From the NCBI GenBank assembly GCA_025351825.1, contig JANXVE010000197.1, positions 1 to 40,059 on the forward strand: a stretch of 40,059 bases of DNA, in the 5' to 3' direction. Positions 4,543 to 21,413 of the stretch are shown piece by piece; within the stretch, counting starts at the first letter, position 1; each line of letters begins with the position of its first letter. The translations under genes and the position numbers were made by a program. The DNA comes from Chamaesiphon sp. 341R_metabat_111 (lineage in GTDB: Bacteria; Cyanobacteriota; Cyanobacteriia; Cyanobacteriales; Chamaesiphonaceae). The notes beneath the pieces are model-generated. The model searched no databases and was not told where the DNA came from. It worked only from the letters and a program-made list of their open reading frames with translations.

Positions 4543-6225
4543 ATGGAAGATTGCAACACTGAAATAATTGACTCTGCTCAACCGCCAGAGGCGATCGTCT
4601 CTGAATTGCCAGAGCAGGTACGGCAAAAACTAGAGATCGTACAATCTCTCTTAGAACCTTGCGATCGATCTGCTTACGGAGAAAAACTCCGTGGTTTTGC
4701 CCAGAAGCGGGGAGTTTCCGTCCGATCTATCCAACGACTGTTTAAGCGGTACCAGGATGAAGGATTAACGGCTTTGACAGATGGAGATCGTAAAGATAAA
4801 GGTTTCTATCGGATTAGTAATGATTGGGAGAATTTTATAGTTAACACATATAAACAGGGCAATAAGGGTAGTAAGCGGATGAGTCCCAAGCAAGTAGCCT
4901 TGCGACTAGAAAGCCAAGCTTTAAAGATCGGCAACCCTAAGCCACCTTGTTACCGAACTGTTTTACGAGTCTTAGCACCAATAATTGATAAACAGAAGAA
5001 AAGTATTCGCTCTCCAGGTTGGCAAGGGTCTACGCTATCGGTTAAAACCCGTGATGGCTTCGACTTAAACATCACTGTTAGTAATCAGGTATGGCAGTGC
5101 GATCATACTCGTGCCGATGTTTTGCTGGTAGACCGTGATGGTAAATTAATCGGTCGGCCTTGGCTAACAACCGTTGTTGATAGTTACTCTCGCTGTATTG
5201 TCGGCATTAACTTAGGATTTGATGCCCCTAGCTCCCAAGTTGTCGCTCTTGCGATACGCCATGCCATTCTACAAAAAAATTATGCGGAGGAATACAAACT
5301 CAATTGCGAATGGGGAACTCTCGGTACTCCCAAATACCTGTTTACGGATGGTGGTAAAGATTTTCGATCGAACCACTTGGCTGAAATTGCTAGCCAGCTA
5401 GGATTTGTACTCAAGCTCCGAGACCGTCCTTCTGAGGGCGGAATCGTAGAACGTCCCTTCAAAACCTTTAACCAAAGTCTGTTTTCAACATTACCTGGAT
5501 ATACAGGTTCTAATGTGCAAGAGCGCCCGAAAGAAGCAGAAGAGGATGCTTGTCTAACTTTACGACAGTTAGAATATTTAGTTGTGCGCTTTATAGTTGA
5601 TAACTACAATCAGAGTATTGACGCTCGAATATGCGAACAAACACGTTTTCAGCGTTGGGAAGCAGGACTAATAGCCGATCCAGAAGTGTTACCGGAACGG
5701 CAGTTAGATATTTGTCTAATGAAGCAGGCTCGAAGACAGATACAGCGGGGCGGATATATTCGGTTTGAGAATATTAACTATAAGGGAACTTATATTGAAG
5801 GTCATGCAGGTGAAACTATTTGCGTGCGATACGATCCCCGTGATATTACTAGCATTTTGGTGTATCAAATAGTCCAGCAGGGTCAGGAGGTATTTTTGTC
5901 CCGCGCTCATGCCCAAGGATTAGAGATGGAGCAATTAGCTTTAGATGAAGCGAGGGCTGGTGCTAAGAGGCTACGAGAAAAAGGGAAGAGTCTTCACAAT
6001 GAATCCATTTTGCAAGAGGTCATCGAACGGGATGCTGCCACTACAAAGGCAACTCGAAAACAACGCCAACGGCAAGAACAAAGCTATAAACAAGTGCAAT
6101 CAATGTCGATCGAAGAGGATGGGGCTTTGGAGAAAACTGCTCTAGAAGTCGCTGATGAAACAGCGGAAGTTGTTGATGTTGAGGTTTGGGATTTAGAAAC
6201 AATGCAAGAGGACTATGGGTGGTAA
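4543..6225 (+). CDS. tnsB: TnsB-type DDE transposase of the V-K CAST
   Basis: This 560-residue protein is the strand-transfer recombinase that joins the transposon 3' ends to target DNA. Residues about 40-75 form a helix-turn-helix (RGVSVRSIQRLFKRYQDEG). The RNase H-like integrase core carries CDHT (D187), TDGGKDF (D269) and GGIVERPF (E303), a DD-34-E triad. The C-terminal Mu-type beta-barrel region is followed by a Lys/Arg/Gln-rich, probably helical tail that contacts TnsC in relatives. It starts at ATG 4543 and ends 2 bp before the tnsC start. No TnsA endonuclease gene or domain is nearby, so only 3'-end cleavage is expected. Confidence 0.95.
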   Translation: MEDCNTEIIDSAQPPEAIVSELPEQVRQKLEIVQSLLEPCDRSAYGEKLRGFAQKRGVSVRSIQRLFKRYQDEGLTALTDGDRKDKGFYRISNDWENFIVNTYKQGNKGSKRMSPKQVALRLESQALKIGNPKPPCYRTVLRVLAPIIDKQKKSIRSPGWQGSTLSVKTRDGFDLNITVSNQVWQCDHTRADVLLVDRDGKLIGRPWLTTVVDSYSRCIVGINLGFDAPSSQVVALAIRHAILQKNYAEEYKLNCEWGTLGTPKYLFTDGGKDFRSNHLAEIASQLGFVLKLRDRPSEGGIVERPFKTFNQSLFSTLPGYTGSNVQERPKEAEEDACLTLRQLEYLVVRFIVDNYNQSIDARICEQTRFQRWEAGLIADPEVLPERQLDICLMKQARRQIQRGGYIRFENINYKGTYIEGHAGETICVRYDPRDITSILVYQIVQQGQEVFLSRAHAQGLEMEQLALDEARAGAKRLREKGKSLHNESILQEVIERDAATTKATRKQRQRQEQSYKQVQSMSIEEDGALEKTALEVADETAEVVDVEVWDLETMQEDYGW

Positions 6226-6227
6226 TT

Positions 6228-7055
6228 ATGGATGAAGCACAGAATATTGCTAATGAATTAGGAGATGTCTCCAAAGATGAACTGTGGTTGCAGCAGGAAA
6301 TAACCCGACTCAATCGTCCTTCAATCCTGCCTTTAGAACATATAAAGGATCTGCATAATTGGTTGGATGATAAGCGCAAGTCGAGGCAGTCGTGTCGAAT
6401 TGTAGGGGAGTCTCGTACTGGTAAGACTGTTGCTTGTAATGCTTACAAATTAAGAAATAAACCCACTCAGAATGGTCGACAAACGCCAATCGTACCTGTG
6501 ATTTACATCATGCCACCAACTAAATGCACTGCAAAAGAGTTGTTCAAAGAGATTATTGAGGCATTGCGTTACAGAGCGGTAAAAGGTACGGTGTCTGATT
6601 TTCGATCGCGGGCAATGGAAGTACTCAAAGCTTGTGAAGTAGAAATGCTAATTATTGACGAAGCAGATCGGTTGAATCTCGATATCTTTTCAGAAGTTCG
6701 CGATCTCAAGGAAAGGAATATCTCTGTTGTCTTAGTTGGCACCGATCGACTCGATGCTGTAATCAACAAGGATGAGCAGATTTATAACCGTTTTCGTTCC
6801 CATCGTCGATTTGGCAAGTTGGCTGGGGTAGATTTCAAGCGGACAGTAACCATTTGGGAGACTAATGTTTTGAAGCTGCCAGTGCCTTCTAATTTAGATC
6901 GCCCAGAAATGCTGAAGATTCTGCTAAAGGCAACAGAGGGCTACATCGGTCGGCTGGATGAGTTGTTGCGGGAAGCAGCAATTAAGTCGCTTTCAAGAGG
7001 ACATAAGCGCGTCGAGAAGGAGATTTTACAAGAAGTAGCTAAGGAGTATTCGTAA
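6228..7055 (+). CDS. tnsC: TnsC AAA+ ATPase of the V-K CAST
   Basis: The AAA+ regulator polymerises on target DNA and links Cas12k/TniQ target selection to TnsB. I place the start at ATG 6228, two bases after the tnsB stop. A longer frame from 6186 would overlap tnsB and adds residues unlike the family. The protein is then 275 residues, the usual length for V-K TnsC. Walker A is GESRTGKT at residues 60-67; Walker B is MLIIDEAD with D144/E145. The sensor region VVLVGTDRLDAVI follows. The stop codon overlaps the tniQ start by one base (TAATG), so the three transposition genes form a coupled operon. Confidence 0.95.
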   Translation: MDEAQNIANELGDVSKDELWLQQEITRLNRPSILPLEHIKDLHNWLDDKRKSRQSCRIVGESRTGKTVACNAYKLRNKPTQNGRQTPIVPVIYIMPPTKCTAKELFKEIIEALRYRAVKGTVSDFRSRAMEVLKACEVEMLIIDEADRLNLDIFSEVRDLKERNISVVLVGTDRLDAVINKDEQIYNRFRSHRRFGKLAGVDFKRTVTIWETNVLKLPVPSNLDRPEMLKILLKATEGYIGRLDELLREAAIKSLSRGHKRVEKEILQEVAKEYS

Positions 7056-7558
7056 TGATAGAAGATGAGATTAAGCCTTGGTTGTTATCGATCGAACCAA
7101 TATCAGGAGAAAGCCTGAGTCATTTTCTGGGTCGATTCCGGCGACAAAATCATTTAAGTTGTTCTGCTCTCGGTCAGCTAGCAGGTATTGGTGGGGTGAT
7201 TGCTCGTTGGGAAAAGTTCTACCATAATCCGTTTCCATCGGATGCTGAGTTGATGGCTCTGGGTAAGTTGTTAAATGTCGATCTATCAACGTTACGGATG
7301 ATGTTACCGACATTGGGCGATGGGATGATGTGTAGTCCGATCCGCCTTTGTGGAGCTTGCTATGTAGAGTCGCCTTATCATCGGCTGGAATGGCAGTATC
7401 GATCGACTGGAGGGTGCGATCGACATCAACTGAGATTGCTGTCTAAATGTCGTAATTGTGACGCTAAGTTATCAATTCCCGCCTTGTGGGAGGATGGTTG
7501 TTGTACTCGCTGCAAGTTACCTTTCGGGGCGATGGTGAAATGGCAAAAGTCCTATTGA
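7055..7558 (+). CDS. tniQ: TniQ, short V-K type
   Basis: This is a 167-residue TniQ, the same short length as in ShCAST and far shorter than TnsD. The N-terminal region (SIEPISGESLSHFLGRF) is the conserved TniQ start. Zinc-binding residues follow in CGACYVE, CDRH, CRNC and CTRC. In V-K systems TniQ caps the TnsC filament next to Cas12k and the tracrRNA. The start ATG shares its A with the tnsC stop. About 275 bp of non-coding DNA lies between its end and the convergent transglycosylase. Confidence 0.93.
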   Translation: MIEDEIKPWLLSIEPISGESLSHFLGRFRRQNHLSCSALGQLAGIGGVIARWEKFYHNPFPSDAELMALGKLLNVDLSTLRMMLPTLGDGMMCSPIRLCGACYVESPYHRLEWQYRSTGGCDRHQLRLLSKCRNCDAKLSIPALWEDGCCTRCKLPFGAMVKWQKSY

Positions 7559-7738
7559 GTAGACTGGAGTGGCGATCGAATATCTAAGATCTTCTAGGTC
7601 GGAAGCCATAATTGGTCTGAGGCTAAAAGTATTAGTTTCAATTGTCGGTAAAGCTGCACCGACTGACATCAGCTTGATCGAAGTTATTAACTTTGACGAT
7701 TGGGAAGATCGAGAGTTTCCAGTGCAGCAACGGAAAAA

Positions 7739-7765
7739 ACCTCGCTCCGATAAGTAGAGCGAGGT
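7739..7765 (-). terminator. Terminator for the minus-strand cargo operon
   Basis: ACCTCGCTC (7739-7747) pairs with GAGCGAGGT (7757-7765), a 9-bp GC-rich stem with a 9-nt loop. Read on the minus strand it is followed by a run of six T (AAAAAA at 7733-7738 on the plus strand), the form of a Rho-independent terminator. It lies between the convergent tniQ and mtgA genes. Confidence 0.8.
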
Positions 7766-7833
7766 AGACAAATTTGTTGATTTGTTCGATCGAGATTGGT
7801 TCATTGGTAAGATAAATCTGATGGAGTTTCTTC

Positions 7834-8592
7834 CTAAGGTTGTAAGGCTCCAGTTGGGTCACTAGCTCCAGTGACTCGATCGATTAATTCCATCGTGGGA
7901 ACGTCACGTTCGAGAGCTTTCATTTCTTTGCGAATGTGGGCTTGGACAAGCTTGAGTGGCTTGGTATGAACTCGGTAACGCAAACATCCTTTAGGTTGGG
8001 GAATGCAGCTTACGATTTCGATTGCTTCTTGTTTTGTCAAATTTTTAGCAGATTTATGGTACAACTTTTTGGCTGCGGATTCGACCCCATATACCCCATC
8101 TTCAAATTCGATGATATTGACGTAAATTTCGAGTATTCGCTCTTTGCCCCAGATTTTTTCGACTGTTGGTGTTAGATACAATTCGCCAACTTTACGGAGA
8201 ATTGCTAGTTCTTTCCACAGCAACGCATTTTTGACTGCTTGCTGGGTGATTGTGCTACCACCACCAGTTTTATTCCGAAGAGCTTCTTTGATACCTTCGA
8301 TGTCGAAGCCGTTATGGTGAGCGAACGAAGTATCTTCAGCACTAATCAGCGCGTGGTAGAAATGGAATGAAACTTTTTTGCCATCTATATACATTCGATC
8401 GAAAGAGCGAGATTTAAGAATCAGCGATTCTGCCTGAATGATTGTAATTGGTGGCAGTACATATTTGTAGATAACACAATATCCAATTTGAAGGGGGACA
8501 ATCGCAAGAACGAATAGTGTGGCTTTCTTTCTCCATCGTTGCCAGATAGTCAAGCTTGTTGCGGCAGTTTTCAATTCTGAAGCTTTGTTCAT
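7834..8592 (-). CDS. mtgA: Monofunctional peptidoglycan transglycosylase (GT51)
   Basis: This 252-residue membrane-anchored GT51 enzyme would polymerise lipid II into glycan chains outside the plasma membrane. One transmembrane helix spans about residues 24-46. The GT51 motif EDTSFAHHNGFD starts at the catalytic Glu, E86, and the second motif GGGSTITQQ covers residues 110-118. There is no transpeptidase domain. As transposon cargo it is unusual: it lies inside the CAST, downstream of alaX but separated by 170 bp containing two palindromes, so it may have its own promoter. The C-terminus (DRVTGASDPTGALQP) is longer than the core family. Confidence 0.88.
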   Translation of the reverse strand: MNKASELKTAATSLTIWQRWRKKATLFVLAIVPLQIGYCVIYKYVLPPITIIQAESLILKSRSFDRMYIDGKKVSFHFYHALISAEDTSFAHHNGFDIEGIKEALRNKTGGGSTITQQAVKNALLWKELAILRKVGELYLTPTVEKIWGKERILEIYVNIIEFEDGVYGVESAAKKLYHKSAKNLTKQEAIEIVSCIPQPKGCLRYRVHTKPLKLVQAHIRKEMKALERDVPTMELIDRVTGASDPTGALQP

Positions 8593-8623
8593 AGTTCAAC
8601 TTGCCTTAATTTTCAGAAAATTG

Positions 8624-8638
8624 ACACAAGGATTGTGT
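8624..8638. promoter_or_regulatory. Palindrome upstream of mtgA, candidate operator
   Basis: ACACAA-GGA-TTGTGT is a perfect 6-3-6 inverted repeat 32 bp upstream of the mtgA start codon. The position suits a repressor site. No regulator can be assigned from sequence. Confidence 0.35.
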
Positions 8639-8640
8639 GA

Positions 8641-8672
8641 GTTGTCTCGATCGAGATCGAGATCGAGACAAC
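8641..8672. repeat. Long palindrome between alaX and mtgA
   Basis: GTTGTCTCGATC (8641-8652) and GATCGAGACAAC (8661-8672) form a perfect 12-bp stem around GAGATCGA. It may end or attenuate the cysE-alaX transcript before mtgA, but no T-run follows on the minus strand. The GATCGA-rich sequence is also typical of cyanobacterial intergenic palindromes. Confidence 0.5.
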
Positions 8673-8764
8673 CCTATAAAATGGCTCAATAATTAGTTAC
8701 CCTGTTGATTTATTGATGGCTACTTACAAGATCGATTATTGAAATCTTTAACTCGATCAAAGCT

Positions 8765-9502
8765 TTACATAAATGAAATATAGATTCGATCTAGCGACTT
8801 GCCATGACTCTTGCGCCGAACGTTTACTACCCCAATGTCTTTGGCACTGCGGACATGAGTACCGCCGCAAGGCATAATGATGTCGCCATAACGCCAGTAG
8901 GAGATGTCTTTGGTGCTGGGGTCTGACTCCATGATGATGTCCTCGCCTCGATCGATTAAATCGTTGGTTAGGTTGGCTACTTCAGGAATCAGATCGGGAT
9001 TGAATTTGTTAGCGTAGTCTAGACGGGCACTTTCGTCATAGATATAGCAACCTTTGAGATAAAGTTTTTCCTCACGACCATAGATGCGATCGAGTGCGTG
9101 TAGGACGAAGTGAGTTGCGCTATGGTATCGCATTAATAAATGGCGATACGACCAGTCGATTTCCAGGCGAACTTTTTGTCCGACTTCAAAAGGCGCAGGT
9201 TGACTCAGTTGATGGACAACTACCGTATCAACTTGCACGACTGGAACTTCAATATCTGGGCGATTGATATAGATTACTTTCCCTGGTTGTTTTTGAACAT
9301 CTTTTACTTCGACACCATCGATCGATCCTCGATCTGCGACTTGCCCTCCTGACTCAGCATAGAATACCGTCTGGTCTAGTACTACTAAATCATCTTGGAC
9401 ATGCAAAACGGTTGCTTCGCATGAGGTTTGATAGGGATCGTCGATAAATAACTTCTGAGTGGGAGGTAATTTTGCTTGGTTGTTTAAAGTGAATGTTGCC
9501 AT
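8765..9502 (-). CDS. AlaX-type trans-editing protein (Ala-tRNA editing domain)
   Basis: A 245-residue free-standing editing domain related to alanyl-tRNA synthetase. The glycine-rich FYAESGGQVADRG motif lies at residues 47-59, and the zinc site is HSATH (H127, H131) plus CGGTH (C212, H216), all intact. AlaX-M proteins hydrolyse Ser- or Gly-tRNA(Ala). The gene follows a cysteine-synthase-like gene by 55 bp in what looks like one operon with cysE and a JAMM peptidase. That suggests it protects translation from a serine-like amino acid made or imported by the module; this link is inference. It is transposon cargo and so probably additional to the chromosomal AlaRS. Confidence 0.9.
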   Translation of the reverse strand: MATFTLNNQAKLPPTQKLFIDDPYQTSCEATVLHVQDDLVVLDQTVFYAESGGQVADRGSIDGVEVKDVQKQPGKVIYINRPDIEVPVVQVDTVVVHQLSQPAPFEVGQKVRLEIDWSYRHLLMRYHSATHFVLHALDRIYGREEKLYLKGCYIYDESARLDYANKFNPDLIPEVANLTNDLIDRGEDIIMESDPSTKDISYWRYGDIIMPCGGTHVRSAKDIGVVNVRRKSHGKSLDRIYISFM

Positions 9503-9557
9503 TGTCGTTACCTTGGTTGAGTGGTTTACATCTGAATTAGCGGGCGGATATTGGCTG

Positions 9558-10487
9558 TTATTTCAACAAGTCCAGGTAGTCAAATACTGAATCGTAAGCC
9601 ATTGTCAGAATATGGATTGGTTTGTCTAATTGTTTCCCCCTTAGCTCTTCAAATATTTTGGATACGGCGGCGAGATTTGCTCCACTAGAAAGTCCAACTA
9701 GCAGAGCTTCTTGCCTAGTCGCGGCAACCATCATTGCTAGTGACTCTTCATAAGTAACATCAATCATTCGATCGATAATCTCAAGGTTCAATACTTTCGG
9801 AATGACGCCAACGGCAAGCCCTTGAATTTGATGAAGCACAAATTTGTTGTCCAAAAGGTCACAGCCATACGGCTGTACGCCAACAATTTGCACTTGGGGA
9901 TATTCTTGCTTGAGGACTTCGCCGATTCCGGTAATATGACCACCAGTGCCAATTCCGCCCACAAAATAATCGATCGACAGATCCCGAAAATCTCTTAATA
10001 TTTCTGGGGCCGTTGTCTGGCGATGGATCTCAGGATTGGCTGGATTTTGACCTTGGTTTAACATTACATAGTCAGGATTTTCTAATTGAATCTCCATTGC
10101 TAATTCACCATGCGAGTTACCTCCTCGGCTACTGTCCGACAGGATTATCTCAACCCCAAATAGTTTCAGTTTTTTCTGTTTATCTGGGCTATAGTTGTCA
10201 GGAATTACCAGCACCACTCGATATCCAAGAATCGCGGCGGTCATTGCTATTCCTAATCCAGTATTTCCTCCAGTTGGTTCGAGAATGGTTTGTTCGGTAT
10301 TGCGCTTGAGAATACCTTCTCGTTCGGCAGCTAGTATCATGTTCGTGCCTGGTCGAATTTTATGGCTGCCGCCAGGATTAAAGGTTTCCATTTTCATGTA
10401 GACACGAATACCAGGGACACCAAAGAATTTACTAATTTCGATAACTGGCGTGTTACCGACAAGTTCGAGCATCGATGGATAAATCAT
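9558..10487 (-). CDS. Cysteine-synthase-like PLP enzyme (OASS/CBS family)
   Basis: A 309-residue fold type II PLP enzyme. The Schiff-base lysine is K43 in NPGGSHKIRPG, the substrate loop is PTGGNTGLG around 69-77, and the phosphate-binding loop is GGIGTGGHITG. Canonical O-acetylserine sulfhydrylases have SVKDR at the lysine; here it is SHKIR, as in some divergent subfamilies. The likely reaction is beta-replacement on O-acetylserine or a similar acceptor, since a serine acetyltransferase lies in the same cluster. The nucleophile may be sulfide, a thiocarboxylated carrier protein, or ammonia/amine as in SbnA-like enzymes. It starts 20 bp after the JAMM gene. The substrate is not determinable from sequence. 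Confidence 0.85.
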   Translation of the reverse strand: MIYPSMLELVGNTPVIEISKFFGVPGIRVYMKMETFNPGGSHKIRPGTNMILAAEREGILKRNTEQTILEPTGGNTGLGIAMTAAILGYRVVLVIPDNYSPDKQKKLKLFGVEIILSDSSRGGNSHGELAMEIQLENPDYVMLNQGQNPANPEIHRQTTAPEILRDFRDLSIDYFVGGIGTGGHITGIGEVLKQEYPQVQIVGVQPYGCDLLDNKFVLHQIQGLAVGVIPKVLNLEIIDRMIDVTYEESLAMMVAATRQEALLVGLSSGANLAAVSKIFEELRGKQLDKPIHILTMAYDSVFDYLDLLK

Positions 10488-10507
10488 AGGTTGTTTCTCC
10501 TAAAAAG

Positions 10508-10999
10508 TTATTTATCGTTGTTGCCAGGGAGAACGGCGATCAATTCGTAGTCACCGTTAATAAATCTGAAAAGTTTGGAGCAAATTACGCTGCTGCTTTG
10601 AACGTCAATTACTAGGTGATCGACTGAATAGATGGGTTCGCCATCGAATAGGGCGTTCTGTTTGTCTTCGTCGCTAAAGTAGGCACCCACATCAGGGTGA
10701 GAGTGATAGATGATCTTTACGGGATTAGTTGAATCAACGTTTCGGCTTAAAAACAGTGCATCCTGGGCTGAGAAGGTGAAGCCATTGGTTGAGTTTCTAG
10801 GATGGGTTACTGGGTCTAGCCGATGTAAATAGTCCTGAACGTTTTCACAGGACCGGATGCCTCGTTTTAGGATTAAGCCACAGCATTCAGTGGGGTAGCT
10901 ATCGAGAGCTAATGAATAAATTTCCTTAATTGAATCTCCTGAGATTAGATAGTTGAGTTCTTGCGTTACCTTTAAATCGATCGTGTAGATATATTTCAT
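10508..10999 (-). CDS. JAMM/MPN+ metallopeptidase (Mec+-like)
   Basis: A 163-residue single-domain JAMM protein with the full zinc site: E38 in TECCG, then H99-S-H101-x7-S109-x2-D112 in HSHPDVGAYFSDED. Bacterial proteins of this size next to cysteine synthases (mycobacterial Mec+) release cysteine from a ubiquitin-like sulfur carrier (CysO). Here the cysteine-synthase-like gene is directly downstream, and a serine acetyltransferase is 98 bp upstream, which fits that role. No ThiS/CysO-like carrier ending in Gly-Gly is visible in the element. An alternative is a deconjugating or processing peptidase of another small-molecule pathway. Confidence 0.88.
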   Translation of the reverse strand: MKYIYTIDLKVTQELNYLISGDSIKEIYSLALDSYPTECCGLILKRGIRSCENVQDYLHRLDPVTHPRNSTNGFTFSAQDALFLSRNVDSTNPVKIIYHSHPDVGAYFSDEDKQNALFDGEPIYSVDHLVIDVQSSSVICSKLFRFINGDYELIAVLPGNNDK

Positions 11000-11097
11000 G
11001 ACTACTATTGCCGCTAGAATTTGGAAAGTAGATTAAGGCTAAGATGCAGATAAATCAGGCATCCTAGCGATTCAAAATACAAGTAATCGAGTATTAT

Positions 11098-11856
11098 CTA
11101 CTGGCGTGGGAAAATTTGATTAAATCCGCGCCGCACTAGCGAAAATGGTGGAACATCTTTCGTCACTACTGCATATGGTTGGACAATCACATCATTGCCA
11201 ACATGAATGCGTCCAAGGATATTAACGTGTCCACAGACTTGCACTCGATCTCCAATAATGGGGTGACGCTGAATAGGTAAATTACCTTCAGCCCCTCTCG
11301 CCCCAATTGTTATACAATTCAAGAAGTAGCAATCCTGACCTATAACGGCGGTTTCACCGATCACTACACCCCATCCATGATCCACTACAAATCCAGATCC
11401 TATCTGTGCTGATGGATTTATCTCGATTCCAGCCGGAAACTTGGCTGCCTCCGAGATCTTCCGTGCCATTTTTTCGAGGTATGTAACATCTTTGGAATTT
11501 TCGCGTTTGCCTAGCTTGTCTAGTTCATGCGCGATTCGATGCTGAAACAGGGAATGAAAGGTCGAATAAGTTTCAAATACATGTTTCCAGCATCCTCGCG
11601 CTGCTGGATCTTTCCCCGCGAAGGCAATTAAATCTTCTCGGCTGTGGTTAACAACAGGATTGTAGATAAGGCGAAGTAATGTTTGCGCCTCTTTCCGAGG
11701 CAAATAGTTAAGTAAAGTCTTATAAACTCCCCCCTTGATTGCCAGATCGATATTGATGGTGTGCGGATCGCTCCCTATCGTGTGGTTTACCGGATCGATT
11801 AATAAGTGATTTCCTGAGTGGACTGTTCGATTTTCACGAGTTATGATTGCATTCAT
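11098..11856 (-). CDS. cysE: Serine O-acetyltransferase
   Basis: A left-handed beta-helix acetyltransferase of 252 residues, counted from ATG 11856. An upstream TTG frame exists, but ATG 11856 has a GGAG box 10 bp before it. An N-terminal helical CysE region (LINYLP, VVNHSR, AFAGKDPAARG) precedes hexapeptide repeats including IGSGFVVDHGWGVVIGETAVIG and ITIGARGAEG, with the conserved Asp-His pair (VDHGWG). It makes O-acetylserine from serine and acetyl-CoA. The C-terminus (GFNQIFPRQ) does not end in the isoleucine by which CysE normally docks into CysK, so a classical cysteine synthase complex with the neighbouring enzyme is doubtful. It is the first gene of the minus-strand cargo cluster. Confidence 0.88.
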   Translation of the reverse strand: MNAIITRENRTVHSGNHLLIDPVNHTIGSDPHTINIDLAIKGGVYKTLLNYLPRKEAQTLLRLIYNPVVNHSREDLIAFAGKDPAARGCWKHVFETYSTFHSLFQHRIAHELDKLGKRENSKDVTYLEKMARKISEAAKFPAGIEINPSAQIGSGFVVDHGWGVVIGETAVIGQDCYFLNCITIGARGAEGNLPIQRHPIIGDRVQVCGHVNILGRIHVGNDVIVQPYAVVTKDVPPFSLVRRGFNQIFPRQ

Positions 11857-11907
11857 ACATCTATTGCTCCAATTAAGGTAATAGAAGTCGTGCGAGGGAG
11901 GTACCAA

Positions 11908-12085
11908 TGCCCACGCATAACTTACAAAACAAAGTCCGAAATACCACTAGGCACTGATAATGCTGAGGTGGTATTTTATTTTTAGCACATGGGAAACAAA
12001 AAAGATAGCTTTTTACGTCAAATTAAATATAGCTTTTAAAGACATATTCGGATATGATGAGGCTATATTATGACGTATCAGCACT
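11908..12085. promoter_or_regulatory. Divergent promoter region between cysE cluster and HTH-fusion/ABC operon
   Basis: This ~180-bp AT-rich region separates the two divergent cargo operons. AAGACATATTCGG at 12039-12051 recurs exactly at 16206-16218, after the end of the ABC operon. TGAGGTGGTATTTTAT (about 11961) and TGAGGCTATATTATG (about 12058) resemble TGAGGTAGTAATTTAT near 16233. These repeats may be operators for the HTH protein encoded just to the right. No clear -35/-10 pair stands out. Confidence 0.35.
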
Positions 12086-13879
12086 ATGAATGAAGTAAAA
12101 AAACGCGGAAGACCAGCAAAAGCTGACAGTTCAGAAGCTCGACAAGATCTGTCCATCCAAAAAGGGTGTCCAGGATTCATGACAATACTTGAAAAATACT
12201 TAAAACAAGCAGATTGGACAAAAACGGATTTGATGTCAGCTATTGATATAGGGAATACACAGCTTTATCGTTGGATTAGCGGTCGGAGTAATATCAGTAA
12301 AGCGACAGTTAATCGAATTGCTGTGAAGCTAGCCAAGAGACTGGACGACGTTTTTGGCAGTTCGCATGGCAATTCTTATTCAGCAACTGATGCTATTGAT
12401 AGCCTATTAAATGAGTTGCTGGATGCTGCCGGATTTGCAGGTTCGGTTAAAGGCAAGTCTGGTGATGATTGCTGGAACAAAATTGCTGAAACCAAACGGT
12501 GGAAGCTTGGCTACACAGATGTTCCAGGATGGTCTACCCGTCAAGACAAAGAAGGTAATCAACAGAAAACCAAACCAATAGGGGACGCGATTGAATATGG
12601 AGAGAATATTGGAAGATTGCTGGGGTTAGAAACAGAATGGGTATATCTTAACTTTGATGAAATGCCTGTAGCTATTCGTCAAAGACAAGTAGATGGGATT
12701 GCACCGTTAATGGTAGCTTTGCCTGGAAGATTGTTTGATTATAGCTTTTCAGATCCATGCGGATCTCATAAATTTACTCTCACTGCTATTACAGATCGTG
12801 AGTTGGTCAATGGAGCAAGGAGCTTAGAGGATCTACCCCAAAATGAAATAGAGTTAATTTATGTAGAAGGTGAGTTAGGCGACTGGGGCAGAAAAATTCT
12901 GTCTCAGTATCGGAGCAAGGGTTATCCTAATGCTAGCCAAGCTGTTTTTCACATAAAAAAAGTAATTAAACGGAAGCAATCAATAATTCCAGTTCTGTTA
13001 ATTGATAATGCCACTGGAGACTTTTTGATTGAAGAAGAAAATTCTTTATCACTGTTAACGCTCACAATTCAACGGATCAAGATGGAATCTTTCAATGCTT
13101 TTGCTTTTAATCCAGATGAGCAAAGATTGGTAGCAGCAGTTAACCAAGCTATTTCTGTATTCCCGATATTTCTCGAACCTTTATCCGTTTCAAACAAGAG
13201 TTCTGTCGATCATTTGATTAACAGTATTATGGATCGAGAAAAATCAATGATTACCGAATTAAAAATCAGAGATGTATTGAGTTCAGTTACAAGCAAAGGT
13301 GATACAGTTGAATTCAGTGAAGCTTTTCACTTTATTCGGCACGAATTTTGTCGCTTGAATTTCATAGTAGGTGCAAGATGTCCAAACAATGAACTTATCT
13401 GGGCAGGTTTAGCAAAAAACTTAATTGAAGAATTAGGTGGAAAGCAAGGGTCTACTCATAATCAGCTATATCGTGATTTTCTTCGATGTGTTGCTGCTAG
13501 ACCCGAAGAAAAATTAGAATGTCCTAAATTCGCACAAGACTTTAACGACACTTGGGAAAATTTTGCTCGTCATGCTCCACTGATGGAATCCCTCTCAGCG
13601 ATCGCAATCTATGAGATTTTTGACGTTCCAGATTATCGCCTGTTTCTAGAAGTATTAGAACAGGCAAAAATCCCTGAATCAGGTTTGACATTCTTCCGCG
13701 TCCACGCCAACGCTCATCACTTTGAAATGTTTGAAGATACCGTCGAATGGATTCTTCAGCAAGAAGGTGGTCAAGAAGCCTTCGATAAGGCTACCGAGTT
13801 TGTATTCGAGACTCAACGAAAGATGTGGATTGGTTTAACTGAATGCCTCCAATCAAAACAACTAGTAACCGCCAATTAA
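12086..13879 (+). CDS. AT-hook/HTH + substrate-binding-like + haem-oxygenase-like diiron oxidase fusion
   Basis: A 597-residue cytoplasmic protein with four parts. Residues 5-11 (KKRGRPAK) look like an AT-hook. Residues ~30-90 form an XRE/Cro-like HTH (TKTDLMSAIDIGNTQLYRWISG). Residues ~135-300 resemble a type 2 periplasmic binding protein core of the amino-acid (SBP_bac_3) kind (VAIRQRQVDGIAPLMVALP, DYSFSDP) without a signal peptide. Residues ~375-590 resemble the haem-oxygenase-like diiron oxidase/CADD/BesC group: NLIEELGG...H with E448 and H458, then ESLSAIAIYEIFDVP and FFRVHANAHHFE. The usual last motif HxxxDxxH reads H540-x3-H544-x2-E547. It heads an operon with an amino-acid ABC importer, so the middle domain may sense the imported ligand and the oxidase act on it; both are inference. 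Confidence 0.75.
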   Translation: MNEVKKRGRPAKADSSEARQDLSIQKGCPGFMTILEKYLKQADWTKTDLMSAIDIGNTQLYRWISGRSNISKATVNRIAVKLAKRLDDVFGSSHGNSYSATDAIDSLLNELLDAAGFAGSVKGKSGDDCWNKIAETKRWKLGYTDVPGWSTRQDKEGNQQKTKPIGDAIEYGENIGRLLGLETEWVYLNFDEMPVAIRQRQVDGIAPLMVALPGRLFDYSFSDPCGSHKFTLTAITDRELVNGARSLEDLPQNEIELIYVEGELGDWGRKILSQYRSKGYPNASQAVFHIKKVIKRKQSIIPVLLIDNATGDFLIEEENSLSLLTLTIQRIKMESFNAFAFNPDEQRLVAAVNQAISVFPIFLEPLSVSNKSSVDHLINSIMDREKSMITELKIRDVLSSVTSKGDTVEFSEAFHFIRHEFCRLNFIVGARCPNNELIWAGLAKNLIEELGGKQGSTHNQLYRDFLRCVAARPEEKLECPKFAQDFNDTWENFARHAPLMESLSAIAIYEIFDVPDYRLFLEVLEQAKIPESGLTFFRVHANAHHFEMFEDTVEWILQQEGGQEAFDKATEFVFETQRKMWIGLTECLQSKQLVTAN

Positions 13880-13902
13880 AACCTAAAAACTAGAGAGATA
13901 GA

Positions 13903-14775
13903 ATGTTAAAAAAATCACTGCTCAGGTATGTGCTAATCGGATTGTCACTATTTAGTGTCCTGATTTTTAACTTAGCTGGATGTACCAATAGTAATGTTAC
14001 GCCGCCCACCGCTACCGCTAGCACATCCATCATGGATCGAGCGGCAACCGATAGCAAAGTCAAAATCGGCTACCTAGTTTTTCCCCCAGCAATTACCAAA
14101 AATCCAACCAGTGGGGAAATTGGCGGACATCTAATCGATACCATCAAAGAGATTGCTCGACTCAGTAAATGGACACCTGAATTTGTCGAAACAGATTGGG
14201 CGGGGTTTACCACTGGCTTAGATTCTGGTCGGTTTGACATCTCCGTCGTCCCGACTTTTGTGACAGTGCCTAGAGCATTGTCTATCTACTTTACCAAGCC
14301 GCTATTCTTCGCTGGCAACAGTGCGATCGTCCGTGCTGGTGAAACTAAAATTACCACCCTCGCCAGCATCGACAAGCCCGAAATTAGAGTTGCCGTTACC
14401 CAAGGTGAAGCGGGAGATGAATACGCCAAGGCAAACTTTAAAAAAGCCAAGATTACCAGCTTTCCAGGCAGCGACCAATCTGCCGCCTTTCAAGCTGTAG
14501 TTGCCGGACGCGCCGATATTGCTCTCGGTGATGCCTATGCTACCGCCCAGTTCGCTAAAGCCAATGCTGCCAAAGTCAAAGACCTATTTGCCGATAAACC
14601 CTACAATCTCACCCCCGTCTCCTGGGCAGTGAAAAAAGGCGACGACAAATTACTCAACTTCCTCAATAGCAGCATCGAAGCCCTCGATTATCAAGGACGC
14701 TTGCGCGAATTTGAGCAAAAAGCAGGTGCTAACTGGTTGCATCCAAAGAAAGTCTTGGAATTCACTAAAGGCTAA
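13903..14775 (+). CDS. Amino-acid-type ABC transporter substrate-binding lipoprotein
   Basis: A 290-residue extracytoplasmic solute receptor of SBP family 3. Residues 1-26 form a signal peptide ending in the lipobox LAGC, so Cys27 is lipidated. A Thr/Ala-rich linker precedes the binding domain: KIGYLVFPPAI at the start, GGHLIDTIKEIARLSKWTPEFVETDWAGFTTGL, then the hinge/second lobe VAVTQGEAGDEYA. The family binds polar amino acids; an acidic or hydrophobic side chain cannot be read off. It follows the fusion gene by 23 bp and precedes the permease by 6 bp. Its domain resembles the middle domain of the fusion protein. Confidence 0.88.
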   Translation: MLKKSLLRYVLIGLSLFSVLIFNLAGCTNSNVTPPTATASTSIMDRAATDSKVKIGYLVFPPAITKNPTSGEIGGHLIDTIKEIARLSKWTPEFVETDWAGFTTGLDSGRFDISVVPTFVTVPRALSIYFTKPLFFAGNSAIVRAGETKITTLASIDKPEIRVAVTQGEAGDEYAKANFKKAKITSFPGSDQSAAFQAVVAGRADIALGDAYATAQFAKANAAKVKDLFADKPYNLTPVSWAVKKGDDKLLNFLNSSIEALDYQGRLREFEQKAGANWLHPKKVLEFTKG

Positions 14776-14781
14776 AACCTC

Positions 14782-15456
14782 ATGGGCTGGAATTTTGCGG
14801 TCATGTGGAATAGTTTCCTGCCCCTGTGCCTTGCCATGCTCACCACCATTTGGATTAGCATTGGCACCATTGCGCTCGGCACGATTTTAGGGGTGCTGCT
14901 GGGGATTCTATCCCTCACCTCAAATCAATTTGCCTCCAAATTAGCACAGGCATTTATCGAACTATTCCTTGCCTTACCAGCCCTGGTGATTCTCGTCTGG
15001 CTCTACTATAGTTTGCCGCTGATTTTCCCTGGCTTCATCTTGAGCGGCGATGCCTGTGCCGTGTTGGGGCTGGGTCTGAGTTTATCCGCCTTTGTTGCCG
15101 ATATTATTCGAGGTGGCATCAATGCTATCCCCGCAGGGGAATTAGAAGTTGCCTATTGTACGGGAATGACTCGATTCCAAGCCATCCGCTACATCCTCAT
15201 CCCCCAAGTCCTCCAACGCTCTTGGTTGCCGCTGATGGGGCAATATCTAACCACCTACAAGTTTTCGACTCTAGCTTCAGTCATCGCCGTCCCCGAAATC
15301 CTGCATACAGCTAATGCGATCATCGCTCAAACCTATCGCCCATTGGAGATCTACTCGATCGTTGCCTTCCTGTTCGTCATCACAATTATGCCCCTCAACC
15401 TGCTGCTCCGCAGACTTCAGCGAGTCAGCAACCTTGGCGGCATGGAGAAAATTTAG
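14782..15456 (+). CDS. Amino-acid ABC transporter permease (HisM/GlnP type)
   Basis: A 224-residue inner-membrane permease with about five hydrophobic helices (TTIWISIGTIALGTILGVLLG, LALPALVILVWLYYSLPLIF, and three more). The cytoplasmic EAA loop ELEVAYCTGMTRFQAIRYILIP contacts the ATPase. A single permease gene is present, so a homodimer is expected. It is 6 bp from both neighbours. Confidence 0.9.
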   Translation: MGWNFAVMWNSFLPLCLAMLTTIWISIGTIALGTILGVLLGILSLTSNQFASKLAQAFIELFLALPALVILVWLYYSLPLIFPGFILSGDACAVLGLGLSLSAFVADIIRGGINAIPAGELEVAYCTGMTRFQAIRYILIPQVLQRSWLPLMGQYLTTYKFSTLASVIAVPEILHTANAIIAQTYRPLEIYSIVAFLFVITIMPLNLLLRRLQRVSNLGGMEKI

Positions 15457-15461
15457 TCCCT

Positions 15462-16142
15462 ATGGCAGAAGTACTCCTCCGACTCGAAAACATCCAAAAA
15501 AGAATCGCTGGCACCACCATCTTCGATAACGTCAGTCTGACACTCGATCGCGGTGACAGCCTGCTAATTCGTGGCAAAAGTGGCTGTGGCAAAACCACAC
15601 TGCTCAGATGTATCGCCCTGCTAGAACAGATCGATCGCGGACAAATCTCCTTCGACGGTAAAGTAGTCTCGGAAAAAGGTGTACTCGATCGATCCAAGCA
15701 CAAACCCGAAATTGGCATGGTGTTCCAGCAACTCTACCTATGGCCGCATCTCACAGTCCTAGACAATGTATCTCTCCCTCTCCATTTGCGCCAAGGCGGA
15801 CACAAAAAACTAGCCGATGGACTCGCGATCAAAAAGCTTTCCCAACTCGGCGTAATCGACAAAGAACAAGCCTATCCCCATCAACTCTCAGGCGGACAAA
15901 GACAGCGGGTTGCCCTGGCCAGAGCCTTAGTCCATTCCCCCAGCATTCTCCTCCTCGATGAAATCACCGCAAACCTAGACCCCGAAACCGCCAGCGTCGT
16001 TCTCGAACTCGTTGAGAAAATTATCATCTCCGGTACTACCGTCATCATGATTTCTCACCTACCCGTCACCTCTCCAGCCTGGATGTACGAACTCAACGCC
16101 AGCAACTGGGCATTGGAGAAAAGACAACAGAGTAATGGCTGA
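15462..16142 (+). CDS. Amino-acid ABC transporter ATP-binding protein (GlnQ type)
   Basis: A 226-residue ABC ATPase with a complete set of motifs: Walker A GKSGCGKTT, Q-loop VFQQLYLWPHLTVLDN, signature LSGGQRQRV, Walker B LLLDEITANLD, and H-loop MISHLP. It is the energising subunit of the importer encoded just upstream. It is shorter than the ~240 residues of typical GlnQ and lacks the usual DEP Walker B proline (DEI here). It is the last gene of the operon; 440 bp without a gene follow. Confidence 0.9.
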   Translation: MAEVLLRLENIQKRIAGTTIFDNVSLTLDRGDSLLIRGKSGCGKTTLLRCIALLEQIDRGQISFDGKVVSEKGVLDRSKHKPEIGMVFQQLYLWPHLTVLDNVSLPLHLRQGGHKKLADGLAIKKLSQLGVIDKEQAYPHQLSGGQRQRVALARALVHSPSILLLDEITANLDPETASVVLELVEKIIISGTTVIMISHLPVTSPAWMYELNASNWALEKRQQSNG

Positions 16143-16580
16143 AATTAATGAACCGGCGCAATACTAGTTTACAAATGTGTGTAACGACGATTTTACCGTT
16201 ATCACAAGACATATTCGGCTACTGTTTAGACGGTTGAGGTAGTAATTTATCGACATCTCAGCTTCGTGAGATGACGCTTCTGGGAGCTAGAATGGGTAAG
16301 CTTACTAAAGAAACCACTTAACTTGCTTATTTAGCTACACATTACTTCTCAATTCCGAATGCTGTGTGTAAAATTGAGGTAAGTTAATAATCTATCAAAA
16401 AATATATTTCACAAGTATACATACAATATATACCTTCTCAGTGACGCATCCAAAACCTTGTGTACCTTTCGGGCAGAAGTTTTTAGGCATTGTATATATC
16501 TAAATCACAGACCTAGTTATTATTTAATTAGTAAATATGTTCTTACCTATTGAGCTTAAACGGTTTCCCATAGATGAACA
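16143..16580. other. Non-coding gap between the ABC operon and the TIGR04255 cassette
   Basis: No credible ORF lies here. It contains a second copy of AAGACATATTCGG (16206-16218) and a perfect hairpin CATCTCA-GCTTCG-TGAGATG at 16254-16273 that could end the ABC transcript. An AT-rich stretch (16380-16580) probably carries the promoter of the next operon. Base composition drops sharply in GC from about 16300 onward, suggesting a cargo junction. Confidence 0.5.
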
Positions 16581-17342
16581 ATGACATTCTCTAATCCACC
16601 CATTGTTGAAGCTATATTCCATATAGTTGTAGAACGTGACAGTGACTTTAATAATGAAAAATTAAATGATTATGCAAAATACGTTACTGAAAGCTTTCCT
16701 GCTTTCGATCGAAAAGAACAGAGATCTCTAAAAAATGAGATTTTAATCCCTATTGATGATCCAGACAACACCACTTCTTCTGTTACCAATATATTACAAG
16801 GATATCTTTTAGCATCCAATGATAACCTCATAGTTATTCAAGCTAATATAGATAACTTCTCCTTTAGTAAATTGCCTCCTTATGGAACATGGGAATCATT
16901 CTACAAAGAAGCAAGTGAGTTTTGGGAGAAATACGTTGAGACAACCTCAGTCGATCGAGTTAAACGTCTTGGATTACGCTATTTAAATCGGATTGAAATT
17001 CCTTTTGATAATAGATCTTTCAAGCTACGAGACTACATCAAGATATTTCCCGAAGTCACTGATGATTTATCAGTAACAATCTCTGGGCACTTTATGCAAA
17101 TGTCTCTTGACTCTGAGCTTTATAAACCGTCCAGAGCGATTGTAAATCAAGCAGTTGGCAATGTAGGCGATATGAAGTCCACTCCTTTAATATTTGATGT
17201 TGAAGTTTTTCAAGATGTAGATCTTGCTCATCAAAACAATTCCAAAGAAATAGAATCAATTTTTATTAATAACTTACGAATATTCAAGAATAGTATATTC
17301 TTGAATAGTATCACTGAAAAATCACAGGAGCTTTTCAAATGA
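16581..17342 (+). CDS. TIGR04255 family protein
   Basis: A 253-residue protein matching the sporadically distributed TIGR04255 family from two signatures: FSNPPIVEAIFHIVV at the N-terminus and RVKRLGLRYLNRIEIP near residues 132-147. The family's biochemical function is not known; members occur patchily and often near defence or mobile genes. Its stop codon overlaps the next start (ATGA at 17339-17342), so it is coupled to the 191-residue gene. The three genes 16581-18469 are AT-rich compared with the ABC operon, which points to a separate origin. Confidence 0.8.
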   Translation: MTFSNPPIVEAIFHIVVERDSDFNNEKLNDYAKYVTESFPAFDRKEQRSLKNEILIPIDDPDNTTSSVTNILQGYLLASNDNLIVIQANIDNFSFSKLPPYGTWESFYKEASEFWEKYVETTSVDRVKRLGLRYLNRIEIPFDNRSFKLRDYIKIFPEVTDDLSVTISGHFMQMSLDSELYKPSRAIVNQAVGNVGDMKSTPLIFDVEVFQDVDLAHQNNSKEIESIFINNLRIFKNSIFLNSITEKSQELFK

Positions 17343-17914
17343 TAGTTTCAGAACGTCAAACCATCGCAAAAAGTCCTATTCAAACAGTAACAAAATCAGG
17401 TAGTTACAATGTTATTGCAAGCTCTAGCAGAGGTGATAGCTGTGAATACAAGCGAGTTGAAGCACAGATAAAATGTCAAGATCGTACTGAGGTTGCTCAC
17501 GTACTTGAAAGTCCTGATGTTGCTGAATTAGAAAAAAGAGCAGAGGATTTAAGAGACTTATTACTTGAAAATCGTACTGCTTTGTCAGAACAGGAAATGC
17601 GTCTACTCAAAGGACTCTTTAATAGTAATAAGCAACTCATTGCTCTGAACAAAAAAACATCTCCATTAATTTTAGTAGCATTAGCAAGTCTTTTAGAGCC
17701 ACTAATTGAAAATCCTGCCTATGCTCAAGACATAGAGTCTATTGTCAAAAGCTTACTAAAATCACCGTCAACAAGTTTAAGATATGCTGCTCTAGATATT
17801 ATTACTGCTGGATTAGGAATAGTTCCTATCGCAGATTCGTTGCTAAAAGAAGCAAGGAACTTGCTGAAAAATGAAGAGTCTGAGTATGTTCTCGAATACT
17901 TGGAGTCTCTTTAA
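17339..17914 (+). CDS. Hypothetical protein, second gene of TIGR04255 cassette
   Basis: A 191-residue protein I do not recognise. The N-terminal third is polar. Residues ~60-105 are strongly helical and charged (ELEKRAEDLRDLLLENRTALSEQEMRLLKGL). The C-terminal half consists of hydrophobic helices (LILVALASLLEPLIENPAYAQ, YAALDIITAGLGIVPIADSLLKEA). The two Pro/Gly-containing stretches could be membrane-associated or pack as a bundle. It overlaps the TIGR04255 frame by 4 bp and is followed after 3 bp by the third gene, so all three products probably act together. Confidence 0.7.
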   Translation: MIVSERQTIAKSPIQTVTKSGSYNVIASSSRGDSCEYKRVEAQIKCQDRTEVAHVLESPDVAELEKRAEDLRDLLLENRTALSEQEMRLLKGLFNSNKQLIALNKKTSPLILVALASLLEPLIENPAYAQDIESIVKSLLKSPSTSLRYAALDIITAGLGIVPIADSLLKEARNLLKNEESEYVLEYLESL

Positions 17915-17917
17915 TTT

Positions 17918-18469
17918 GTGGAGCAAATTTTTTATTATCGAAGTTTAAGTAAAAGTGCAGATATCTGGAGAAAGGGGAAAAAAATCAAGACTTTTCCCCT
18001 TGATGTTGAAAAGCAGACATACTTGAGTCACTTGACAACAGGGAAAGGATTTCCTTCAATATGGATGTCATCAAATAATGAAGATCTAGAAAAAATTGCT
18101 TTGGGGCTTATGCTATGTAAGGGAAGTCTTGATCGGATAGAGTTTATCGGACTCTATCCATGCTGCTTTGAAAAAACACAAGTCAAAATTATTCAAGCTC
18201 CCAACTCTCAATTTCCATTGCCTTCGGTTGCCAATCTTCATCATGAATTACAAACTTATAATGATGAAAACCTTACCGACTCAGTTGAAATATTTCTACA
18301 TTGTAATGGGAAGATAGAGAAGTTTCCAAAAGTCTCGAATTCAGAGACAGAGACAAGTATGCTAAACATAGCAAAGAAGTATATCGACGAAATAAGTGGT
18401 GAAGTTTATATAAAGAAAGCTAGGGACTGGATTGAAAAATACGGAAAATCTCAAGTAACTGAGAATTAA
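17918..18469 (+). CDS. Hypothetical protein, third gene of TIGR04255 cassette
   Basis: A 183-residue protein from a GTG start 3 bp after the preceding stop; a GGAG box lies about 10 bp upstream. I recognise no domain. It begins with FYYRSLSKSADIWRKGKKIKT, contains a segment resembling a small alpha/beta domain (DRIEFIGLYPCCFEKTQV), and ends in a charged helix. It is convergent with the MerR-HsdR regulator, separated by 105 bp. Confidence 0.65.
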   Translation: MEQIFYYRSLSKSADIWRKGKKIKTFPLDVEKQTYLSHLTTGKGFPSIWMSSNNEDLEKIALGLMLCKGSLDRIEFIGLYPCCFEKTQVKIIQAPNSQFPLPSVANLHHELQTYNDENLTDSVEIFLHCNGKIEKFPKVSNSETETSMLNIAKKYIDEISGEVYIKKARDWIEKYGKSQVTEN

Positions 18470-18574
18470 AAAGGACAGTTAACTTAAATAGAACAATCGA
18501 TCGTGGCAATTAGTTGATCGATCTGAAAAGATATGAAACCTCTTCATTTTCTGAACAATCAAATCCATATTAGC

Positions 18575-19453
18575 TTAATCACCCTTTACCAACTCAATTA
18601 AAGCTTGGGGCGTATGGAACGTAGGTATTGCCTCAACGAGATTAGACTCGTCTCTGATATCACAGAAATAGGTAGTTTTTCCATCACTAGAGTACAAGAA
18701 AGGAACCCGATAGCCCCGCCAACTACCAACACCGTCAAATGAACCTCTAGAGTATTGTTTGGCTTGCTCCATACCCGATTCGAGATTACTCATTAGTGTT
18801 TTTACCTCAATAATGCCAATTAGTAATCCATGTACGAACAGAGCATAGTCCGCCCTACCCGTTGCCACTGAATATTCTTCAACAGCATGACTCCCTAATT
18901 GACTTGTTTCTAAATCCTTTTCATCGCTAATCACCGACCAACCTAAAGCATCGAGTGTTCGATCGACGAGATTTTTAGCATTTTCATCTCGAATGTCATC
19001 AAGAACATCTATGAGTAAAACCTTGTCACCCCTTACACAACGGATGCGTTCGATTAATATTTGGTGAAGTTGGTCTAGCCAGAGTGGAATTACTGCTTGC
19101 CCATTTCTTAGTGCCTGTTGAGTGGCTTCTACCTCAAAATCTCTAATGATTAACCGATTTCCATCCTCAGATCGGGAAAAAAAGTAACGAGTGACAACAG
19201 AGTCCTTACTAAATGCTGGTTTCTCTTCCTTAAGAGCTTCAAGACCTGCACAAGCTTCTGTGTAGTCTAATCCAGCAGAAAATAGATGAGCCATCACCAT
19301 CAGAGCTGCAAGATCTTCTTGGGTATAGAAGACGCTGCGACCTCTGCCAGTGGCATCTACTGTCGGCACTACTACCCCTTGCTCTCGCCAATACTGCAAC
19401 TGACGCAATGTACATCCTGTAATCTCGGCAGCTTCTTTACTAGTAAAAAACAT
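18575..19453 (-). CDS. CvkR-like MerR regulator fused to an HsdR-N/PD-(D/E)XK domain
   Basis: A 292-residue protein divergent from cas12k, the position of CvkR, the MerR-type repressor of V-K CASTs. Residues 1-75 are a MerR winged helix (FTSKEAAEITGCTLRQLQYWREQG). A middle helical segment follows. Residues ~150-285 match the N-terminal domain of type I restriction R subunits: GRADYALFVHG, GIIEVKT, EQAKQYSRG, PFLYSSDGKTTYFCDIR. The nuclease triad D202 - E216 - K218 is intact. Repression of cas12k is inferred from position. The second domain could be catalytic or only a dimerisation/nucleic-acid-binding scaffold. Short CvkR proteins have about half this length; whether the long form is already described should be checked. 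Confidence 0.82.
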   Translation of the reverse strand: MFFTSKEAAEITGCTLRQLQYWREQGVVVPTVDATGRGRSVFYTQEDLAALMVMAHLFSAGLDYTEACAGLEALKEEKPAFSKDSVVTRYFFSRSEDGNRLIIRDFEVEATQQALRNGQAVIPLWLDQLHQILIERIRCVRGDKVLLIDVLDDIRDENAKNLVDRTLDALGWSVISDEKDLETSQLGSHAVEEYSVATGRADYALFVHGLLIGIIEVKTLMSNLESGMEQAKQYSRGSFDGVGSWRGYRVPFLYSSDGKTTYFCDIRDESNLVEAIPTFHTPQALIELVKGD

Positions 19454-19511
19454 TAAACTTCAGCATAGATTCTGACATAAAGATCATATTAGCTCAACGC
19501 GCCCCATCATG

Positions 19512-19544
19512 TTCATTGCCTTTAATGAAAACATTGTGTTATTA
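19512..19544 (+). promoter_or_regulatory. Candidate cas12k promoter with overlapping operator
   Basis: TTGCCT (19516-19521) and TTATTA (19539-19544) are spaced by 17 bp, a plausible -35/-10 pair ending 7 bp before the cas12k ATG. A perfect inverted repeat TTCATT-N6-AATGAA (19512-19529) overlaps the -35 box and spacer. This is where a MerR-family protein would bind. It lies in the 98-bp divergent region between the regulator and cas12k. The very short leader leaves little room for a ribosome site. Confidence 0.45.
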
Positions 19545-19551
19545 TTACGCT

Positions 19552-21402: not shown

Positions 21403-21413
21403 AAATTGAACAA

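Follow-up and report, generated by a model that had tools for sequence, protein, structure and literature searches.

A candidate cyanobacterial module for amino-acid uptake, conversion and tRNA proofreading

What use has a cyanobacterium for a tRNA-editing protein encoded back to back with an amino-acid importer? The question is raised by a stretch of 40,059 nucleotides from Chamaesiphon sp. 341R_metabat_111 (the window), one entire contig of a 4.06-Mb cyanobacterial genome. Eight of its genes had been read, in an original prediction made from the sequence, as one module of amino-acid uptake and sensing, O-acetylserine-type conversion and tRNA proofreading. The open reading frame (ORF) list places all eight where they had been described, Pfam and NCBIfam bear out that each gene family is clear, and the module is conserved in two other genomes. 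Opinion is evenly poised on whether it is a specialised non-protein amino-acid system with built-in tRNA proofreading, making a small beta-substituted alanine from O-acetylserine. The module is laid out as follows.

8765-9502, minus strand: AlaX (ORF list, Pfam, NCBIfam)
9558-10487, minus strand: PALP, a cysteine-synthase-like enzyme (ORF list, Pfam, NCBIfam)
10508-10999, minus strand: Prok-JAB, a JAMM/JAB metalloprotease (ORF list, Pfam)
11098-11907, minus strand: CysE-type serine O-acetyltransferase, hexapeptide family (ORF list, Pfam, NCBIfam)
11908-12085, no strand: divergent control region of ∼180 bp between the operons
12086-13879, plus strand: fusion of HTH_3, SBP_bac_3 and Haem_oxygenas_2 domains, 597 aa in a single frame (Pfam)
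12086-13160, plus strand: regulator part of the fusion, with a Cro/CI-type helix-turn-helix (HTH) at aa 35-88 and a cytoplasmic amino-acid-binding SBP_bac_3 domain at aa 160-356
13187-13879, plus strand: heme-oxygenase-like oxidase (HDO) part of the fusion (Pfam, structure model, ligand alignment)
13903-14775, plus strand: binding protein of an ATP-binding cassette (ABC) importer, lipoprotein-type, for polar amino acids (Pfam, NCBIfam)
14782-15456, plus strand: importer permease, HEQRo/GlnP type (Pfam, NCBIfam)
15462-16142, plus strand: importer ATPase, GlnQ type (Pfam, NCBIfam)

Conservation of the module and of its halves

The fusion protein, used as a single query against plasmids and 84,980 genomes, gave no match; an alignment of the HDO part then gave three loci. 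Genome G391, of the same genus as the window genome (G000), has the same two divergent operons with the full set (loci L017 and L022). Its proteins are 96% (AlaX), 89% (PALP), 70% (JAMM), 39% (CysE), 54% (regulator) and 68% (HDO) identical to those of the window, and in the importer the solute-binding protein (SBP) is 97% and the remaining subunits 92-96% identical. The complete set recurs in the same divergent gene order in G354, an Oscillatoriales metagenome-assembled genome of another family (locus L019), at identities of 73, 68, 61, 43, 39 and 55% in the same order of proteins, and of 72, 76 and 61% for the importer SBP, permease and ATPase. Because two other genomes share this gene order, the eight-gene set is more than chance: it is a conserved module, and the two operons co-occur elsewhere, as the original prediction required. 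The operons share their ∼180 bp, as had been proposed, but region 11908-12085 contains no convincing conserved operator and none that is common to distant loci.

The joining of HTH, binding-protein and oxidase domains in one frame holds for the window but does not generalise. It occurs in only one of five loci; in all others the HTH-SBP gene and the HDO gene are separate, adjacent neighbours, and the fusion is therefore a single, lineage-specific joining of two normally separate genes. The two halves of the module are separable parts as well, since the importer/oxidase half stands alone in two genomes and the AlaX/PALP/CysE core stands alone, with exporters, elsewhere. Genome G039 (same genus as G354) has the HTH-SBP gene, the HDO gene and the whole importer at a locus beside valS that is syntenic with that of G354, and Zarconia navalis has the HTH-SBP and HDO genes and then a binding protein before its 6-kb contig ends; neither genome has an AlaX anywhere at E ≤ 1e-10. 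Conversely, G618, again of the G354 genus, has AlaX (58%), PALP (34%), a major facilitator superfamily (MFS) transporter and CysE together, at a locus that lacks JAMM, HDO and importer. Among the 391 and 365 cyanobacterial genomes of two draws (the wider genome draws were cyanobacterial only), full-length standalone AlaX of the module's family is found in G000, G391, G354 and G618, in all four cases in PALP/CysE operons; the other hits are a C-terminal fragment in G458 and complete alanyl-tRNA synthetases.

The core extends from other cyanobacteria to plasmids of gut and insect-associated bacteria. The top plasmid relatives of the window AlaX and some of the best of its PALP are co-located. 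On the Salmonella India plasmid NZ_CP022016.1, AlaX is divergent from a set of PALP, CysE, methyltransferase and AzlC exporter genes; on the Xenorhabdus sp. TH1 plasmid NZ_CP147736.1, it accompanies a plasmid-borne valS, serine deaminase, a drug/metabolite transporter (DMT), CysE and PALP. AlaX+PALP+CysE is thus seen in four contexts, three of which have an exporter (MFS in G618, AzlC in Salmonella, DMT in Xenorhabdus) and no importer or HDO in the cluster. The survey that had been proposed, inside and outside CRISPR-associated transposons (CASTs), therefore has a mixed outcome: the full module exists outside CASTs, in G391 and G354, but its halves also occur apart (G039 and Zarconia navalis; G618 and the two enterobacterial plasmids). 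No Tns, other transposition or Cas12k genes are present in the flanks retrieved for G391 and G354. The AlaX genes inspected on plasmids of Vibrio, Legionella, Halorientalis and Cetobacterium have neither PALP nor CysE beside them, the Salmonella AlaX cluster is absent from 5,426 E. coli genomes, viral contigs gave a single distant AlaX match only, and PALP relatives in phage records show similarity at the ordinary cysteine-synthase level.

Several smaller features accompany these loci. Around window positions 10728-13310, DNA of the block is 85-93% alike between the window and L017 on both sides, whereas CysE, control region and regulator give no DNA alignment except a 104-base match; the middle of the block is replaced or fast-diverging relative to G391. 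G391 has an insertion, a septin/dynamin-like GTPase gene, between its AlaX and PALP genes (L017 12329-13462), and in G354 a short ORF that matches DUF2000 weakly and in part (E 0.0013) lies between cysE and the regulator (L019 8123-8386). An extra valyl-tRNA synthetase as a self-resistance gene in G354 and G039 is ruled out: the adjoining valS is the only full-length copy there. In Xenorhabdus (L061 950-5429), the plasmid-borne valyl-tRNA synthetase and serine deaminase that adjoin AlaX resemble additional target copies that would counter an inhibitor similar to valine or serine. Near the Salmonella AlaX cluster lies a second unusual operon (L060 1786-8107) with MoaD/ThiS, TrmO-like, Glu/Leu dehydrogenase-type, adenylosuccinate-lyase-type, hypothetical and HesA/MoeB/ThiF genes; it may encode a further pathway for a non-protein amino acid.

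Predicted activities of the gene products

The 245-aa AlaX is of the AlaX-M type and has no aminoacylation domain. Its zinc motif (H127xxxH131 and C212xxxH216) and GGQ loop are invariant in five homologues; it scores 136 bits with NCBIfam AlaXM, below the equivalog cut-off of 300, and E=2e-35 with the PDB AlaX 2e1b. By these features it is a predicted standalone alanyl-tRNA editing protein.

The PALP protein (PF00291, 228 bits) has its pyridoxal phosphate (PLP) lysine, K43, in NPGGSHK, and falls below both curated cut-offs, scoring 285 bits for CysK (344) and 280 bits for CysM (351). Its Asn loop reads TGGNTG (GGN) against the canonical TSGNTG (SGN), and it contains a QPxGC motif and SSGAN. 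AlaX-linked PALPs in general have GGN in place of SGN or AGN, (Q/H)PxxC(D/E) and SSGAN, and stand apart from CysK, CysM and CBS in the tree (branch 100/99). Where a JAMM gene is linked, the position of CysK Phe143 (F143) is Gly, which suggests a larger pocket. These characters point to a PLP-dependent beta-replacement enzyme of the cysteine-synthase fold, distinct from the genome's housekeeping CysK. PALP enzymes that make beta-substituted alanines are known, namely O-ureido-L-serine synthase of the D-cycloserine pathway (PDB 3x43), SbnA and beta-cyanoalanine synthase; the module PALP, with GGN instead of SGN, shows no special closeness to any of these enzymes.

CysE retains both of its motifs, DHG and RHP; its start codon is uncertain, TTG as listed or ATG at codon 18. 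It is a second, divergent copy beside the housekeeping cysE, and because ordinary CysK and CysE copies are present elsewhere in each same genome, the module copies of both enzymes are probably specialised. The JAMM motif E-x-HxH-x7-Sx2D is complete (E38, H99-S-H101-P, S109xxD112) and invariant in three homologues. This JAMM family turned up only within the module, which contains no dedicated sulfur-carrier gene; ThiS-family genes number 2-3 in all five genomes, with or without JAMM. Structure prediction for the protease was unsuccessful, with a predicted local distance difference test score (pLDDT) of 43.

In the SBP_bac_3 family, an Arg holds the carboxylate and an Asp the amino group of the amino acid. 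Both positions are kept in the regulator and in the importer SBP, and the importer, with an SBP_bac_3 protein, an HEQRo-type permease and a GlnQ-type ATPase, has the features of a polar amino acid transporter (PAAT).

The HDO part (PF14518, 56 bits; model pLDDT 80) has BesC, a 4-chloro-allylglycine synthase, as its closest fold (Z 21.3, root-mean-square deviation 2.8 over 212 residues), yet at 12% identity. The label of diiron oxidase given earlier cannot be kept, because two of the six canonical ligands, E-H-E-H-D-H (3H/3C), are replaced. E82-H91-E143-H173 are retained; the last two ligands, on core helix 3, are replaced (+4 is H/H/E/N/N, +7 is E/A/G/E/E), and an invariant His occupies +5, one residue off the canonical position. 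This loss resembles that in FlcD, which has E-H-X-H-V-R, with Val and Arg as its last two ligands, and uses a single iron (PMC11363339). The HDO site is more likely to be mononuclear or unusual than diiron. BesC cleaves 4-chlorolysine (PMC13108848); unlike BesC and FlcD, the module HDO is fused or adjacent to an amino-acid-sensing regulator.

A proposed pathway and its rivals

The pathway that these genes suggest would begin with CysE, which would make O-acetylserine. PALP would then swap the acetate for some nucleophile, not plain sulfide, and so yield a small beta-substituted alanine, which alanyl-tRNA synthetase (AlaRS) would mischarge and AlaX would strip from tRNA-Ala, as self-protection. 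In the cyanobacterial version, JAMM perhaps detaches the product or the nucleophile from a carrier. For the divergent arm, the most likely role is to sense (HTH-SBP), import (ABC importer) and oxidise (HDO) this alpha-amino acid or a related one, the HDO substrate presumably being the amino acid sensed and imported; the arm would serve either for uptake and turnover or as a tailoring step.

The direction and the substrate of the pathway are suggested by the recurrent core. No AlaX+PALP cluster lacks CysE, which points to O-acetylserine as the PALP substrate, so PALP should make a beta-substituted alanine. With an exporter in three of the contexts, a secreted product is favoured; the exporters point to synthesis, rather than breakdown, as much as to import; the presence of AlaX implies a compound that is mischarged onto tRNA-Ala. 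Such mischarging is chemically plausible, because beta-N-methylamino-L-alanine (BMAA), itself a beta-substituted alanine and a candidate for the compound, is reported to be an AlaRS substrate: human AlaRS charges it onto tRNA-Ala, where it escapes proofreading, and cyanobacterial AlaRS activates it (PMC7904546, PMC9414260). The proposed BMAA route, a cysteine-synthase-like enzyme and a methyltransferase (PMC9414260), shares with the loci described here the extra PALP with CysE and, in the Salmonella cluster, the methyltransferase; the cyanobacterial module has no methyltransferase. An independent precedent is suggested by analogy on the Pseudomonas tremae plasmid NZ_CP066271.1 (L137 5013-6281), where AlaX and then a LysE exporter stand at the end of the coronamic acid (cma) cluster, another non-protein amino-acid pathway; in the literature searched, nothing was found that ties AlaX to the cma genes. 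The Pseudomonas pathway differs from the module in making an isoleucine-derived cyclopropane amino acid on carrier proteins, without PALP or CysE.

Several observations weigh against this proposal. Instead of an exporter, the cyanobacterial module has an importer, and the sensor/oxidase/importer half exists without the AlaX half in G039 and Zarconia navalis, so a joint pathway is not obligatory. The AlaX tree groups the linked AlaX proteins weakly (76/84), and the G618 PALP sits on a very long branch that makes its exact position unsure. No extra ThiS/MoaD-type carrier accompanies JAMM in the JAMM genomes.

The importer lends itself to a different account, in which an external toxic amino acid is taken up and detoxified or used: it would be sensed by the HTH-SBP protein and broken down by HDO, the nucleophile released would be trapped by PALP and CysE in a harmless derivative of alanine, and AlaX would clear mischarged tRNA. 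The cyanobacterial loci have an importer and lack an exporter, the binding domains of sensor and importer keep the Arg and Asp that bind amino acids, and the HDO and importer half is conserved by itself. There is also a precedent in canavanine metabolism, where canavanine-exposed bacteria use CtdA, a canavanyl-tRNA(Arg) deacylase (PMC10018355). Like the AlaX proposed here, CtdA edits tRNA as a standalone protein and guards against a non-protein amino acid, but it is a B3/4-fold editor for tRNA-Arg, not an AlaX for tRNA-Ala, and involves no O-acetylserine chemistry. The presence of CysE in every AlaX+PALP cluster, three of them with exporters and without importer or HDO, fits synthesis better, and detoxification is a somewhat unlikely explanation. 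It is unlikely, too, that the module makes cysteine by an alternative route of the CysO/CysM/Mec+ kind, with a thiocarboxylated carrier giving its sulfur to O-acetylserine on PALP, JAMM freeing the cysteine, and the importer/HDO arm recovering sulfur from an imported organosulfur amino acid. In that Mycobacterium tuberculosis system, which likewise pairs a cysteine-synthase-like enzyme with a JAMM protease, CysM adds CysO-COSH to O-phosphoserine and Mec+ cleaves CysO-cysteine (PMC3227635); here a JAMM protein with a complete motif adjoins a cysteine-synthase-like enzyme and CysE, and the Gly at the F143-equivalent position would give JAMM-linked PALPs a roomier pocket. The module nevertheless has CysE and no carrier gene, its AlaX, HDO, sensor and importer are without counterpart in the Mycobacterium system, and the JAMM genomes hold no extra ThiS/MoaD. 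Clusters that lack JAMM still keep AlaX+PALP+CysE, ordinary cysteine synthesis gives no obvious need for AlaX, and housekeeping CysK and CysE are present.

The eight genes might instead be two independent cargo operons placed back to back (AlaX/PALP/JAMM/CysE and HTH-SBP/HDO/importer), joined once and inherited. Each half does occur alone, and the G039 and G354 loci, within one genus, differ in the presence of the AlaX half. The same divergent order, however, is kept in two families, at 61-76% identity for AlaX, PALP, JAMM and the importer subunits, whether or not a CAST surrounds it, as if the pair were under selection. Independence is quite improbable.

If the proposed non-protein amino-acid system is real, it would show that the making of an amino-acid mimic is coupled in cells to tRNA proofreading and that AlaX can act as a self-resistance gene. 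AlaX beside a GGN-type cysteine-synthase-like gene and CysE would then be a sequence signature for hunting non-protein amino acids. To our knowledge, no gene has been shown to make BMAA and no genes are known for cyanobacterial beta-substituted alanines, for which AlaX+PALP+CysE offers a concrete genetic candidate class. That the core is the long-sought kind of cyanobacterial locus for beta-amino- or beta-substituted alanines (2,3-diaminopropionate, BMAA), with AlaX shielding the producer from an amino acid that AlaRS attaches to tRNA and does not edit away, and with the CAST spreading the trait, is a long shot. In the literature searched, which left subscription papers mostly outside, no description was found of the AlaX+PALP+CysE set or of the full module, in line with the earlier statement that no described system with such a set was known. 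The individual parts are all of known kinds; what appears new is their combination and its recurrence.

The transposon setting

The module is cargo of a type V-K CAST: it lies between TniQ and CvkR/Cas12k, within matched ends and with a tRNA gene alongside.

4284-22178, no strand: type V-K CAST carrying the module, with ends TGTACAGTGAC at 4284 and GTCACCGTACA at 22178
4543-6225: TnsB, left part of the CAST
6186-7055: TnsC, left part
7055-7558: TniQ, left part
18575-19453, minus strand: CvkR-HsdR fusion (MerR-HsdR, of the CvkR kind), right part
19516-21402: Cas12k, right part
21832-22011: CRISPR repeats, right part
22180-22255: tRNA-Pro, immediately outside the right end

This arrangement agrees with the published type V-K layout, including four known CvkR-HsdR fusions (PMC9938897); no 5-bp target duplication is recognisable at the CAST ends. 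The module is bordered by a monofunctional transglycosylase gene (7834-8592) and a three-gene set led by a TIGR04255 protein (16581-18469). Absent from the G354 locus, these genes flank the module both in the CAST and in G391 (87-96% identity). In G391 the importer ATPase gene also has a partial second copy (L022 3662-4159, 87% DNA identity), situated downstream of the TIGR04255 genes.

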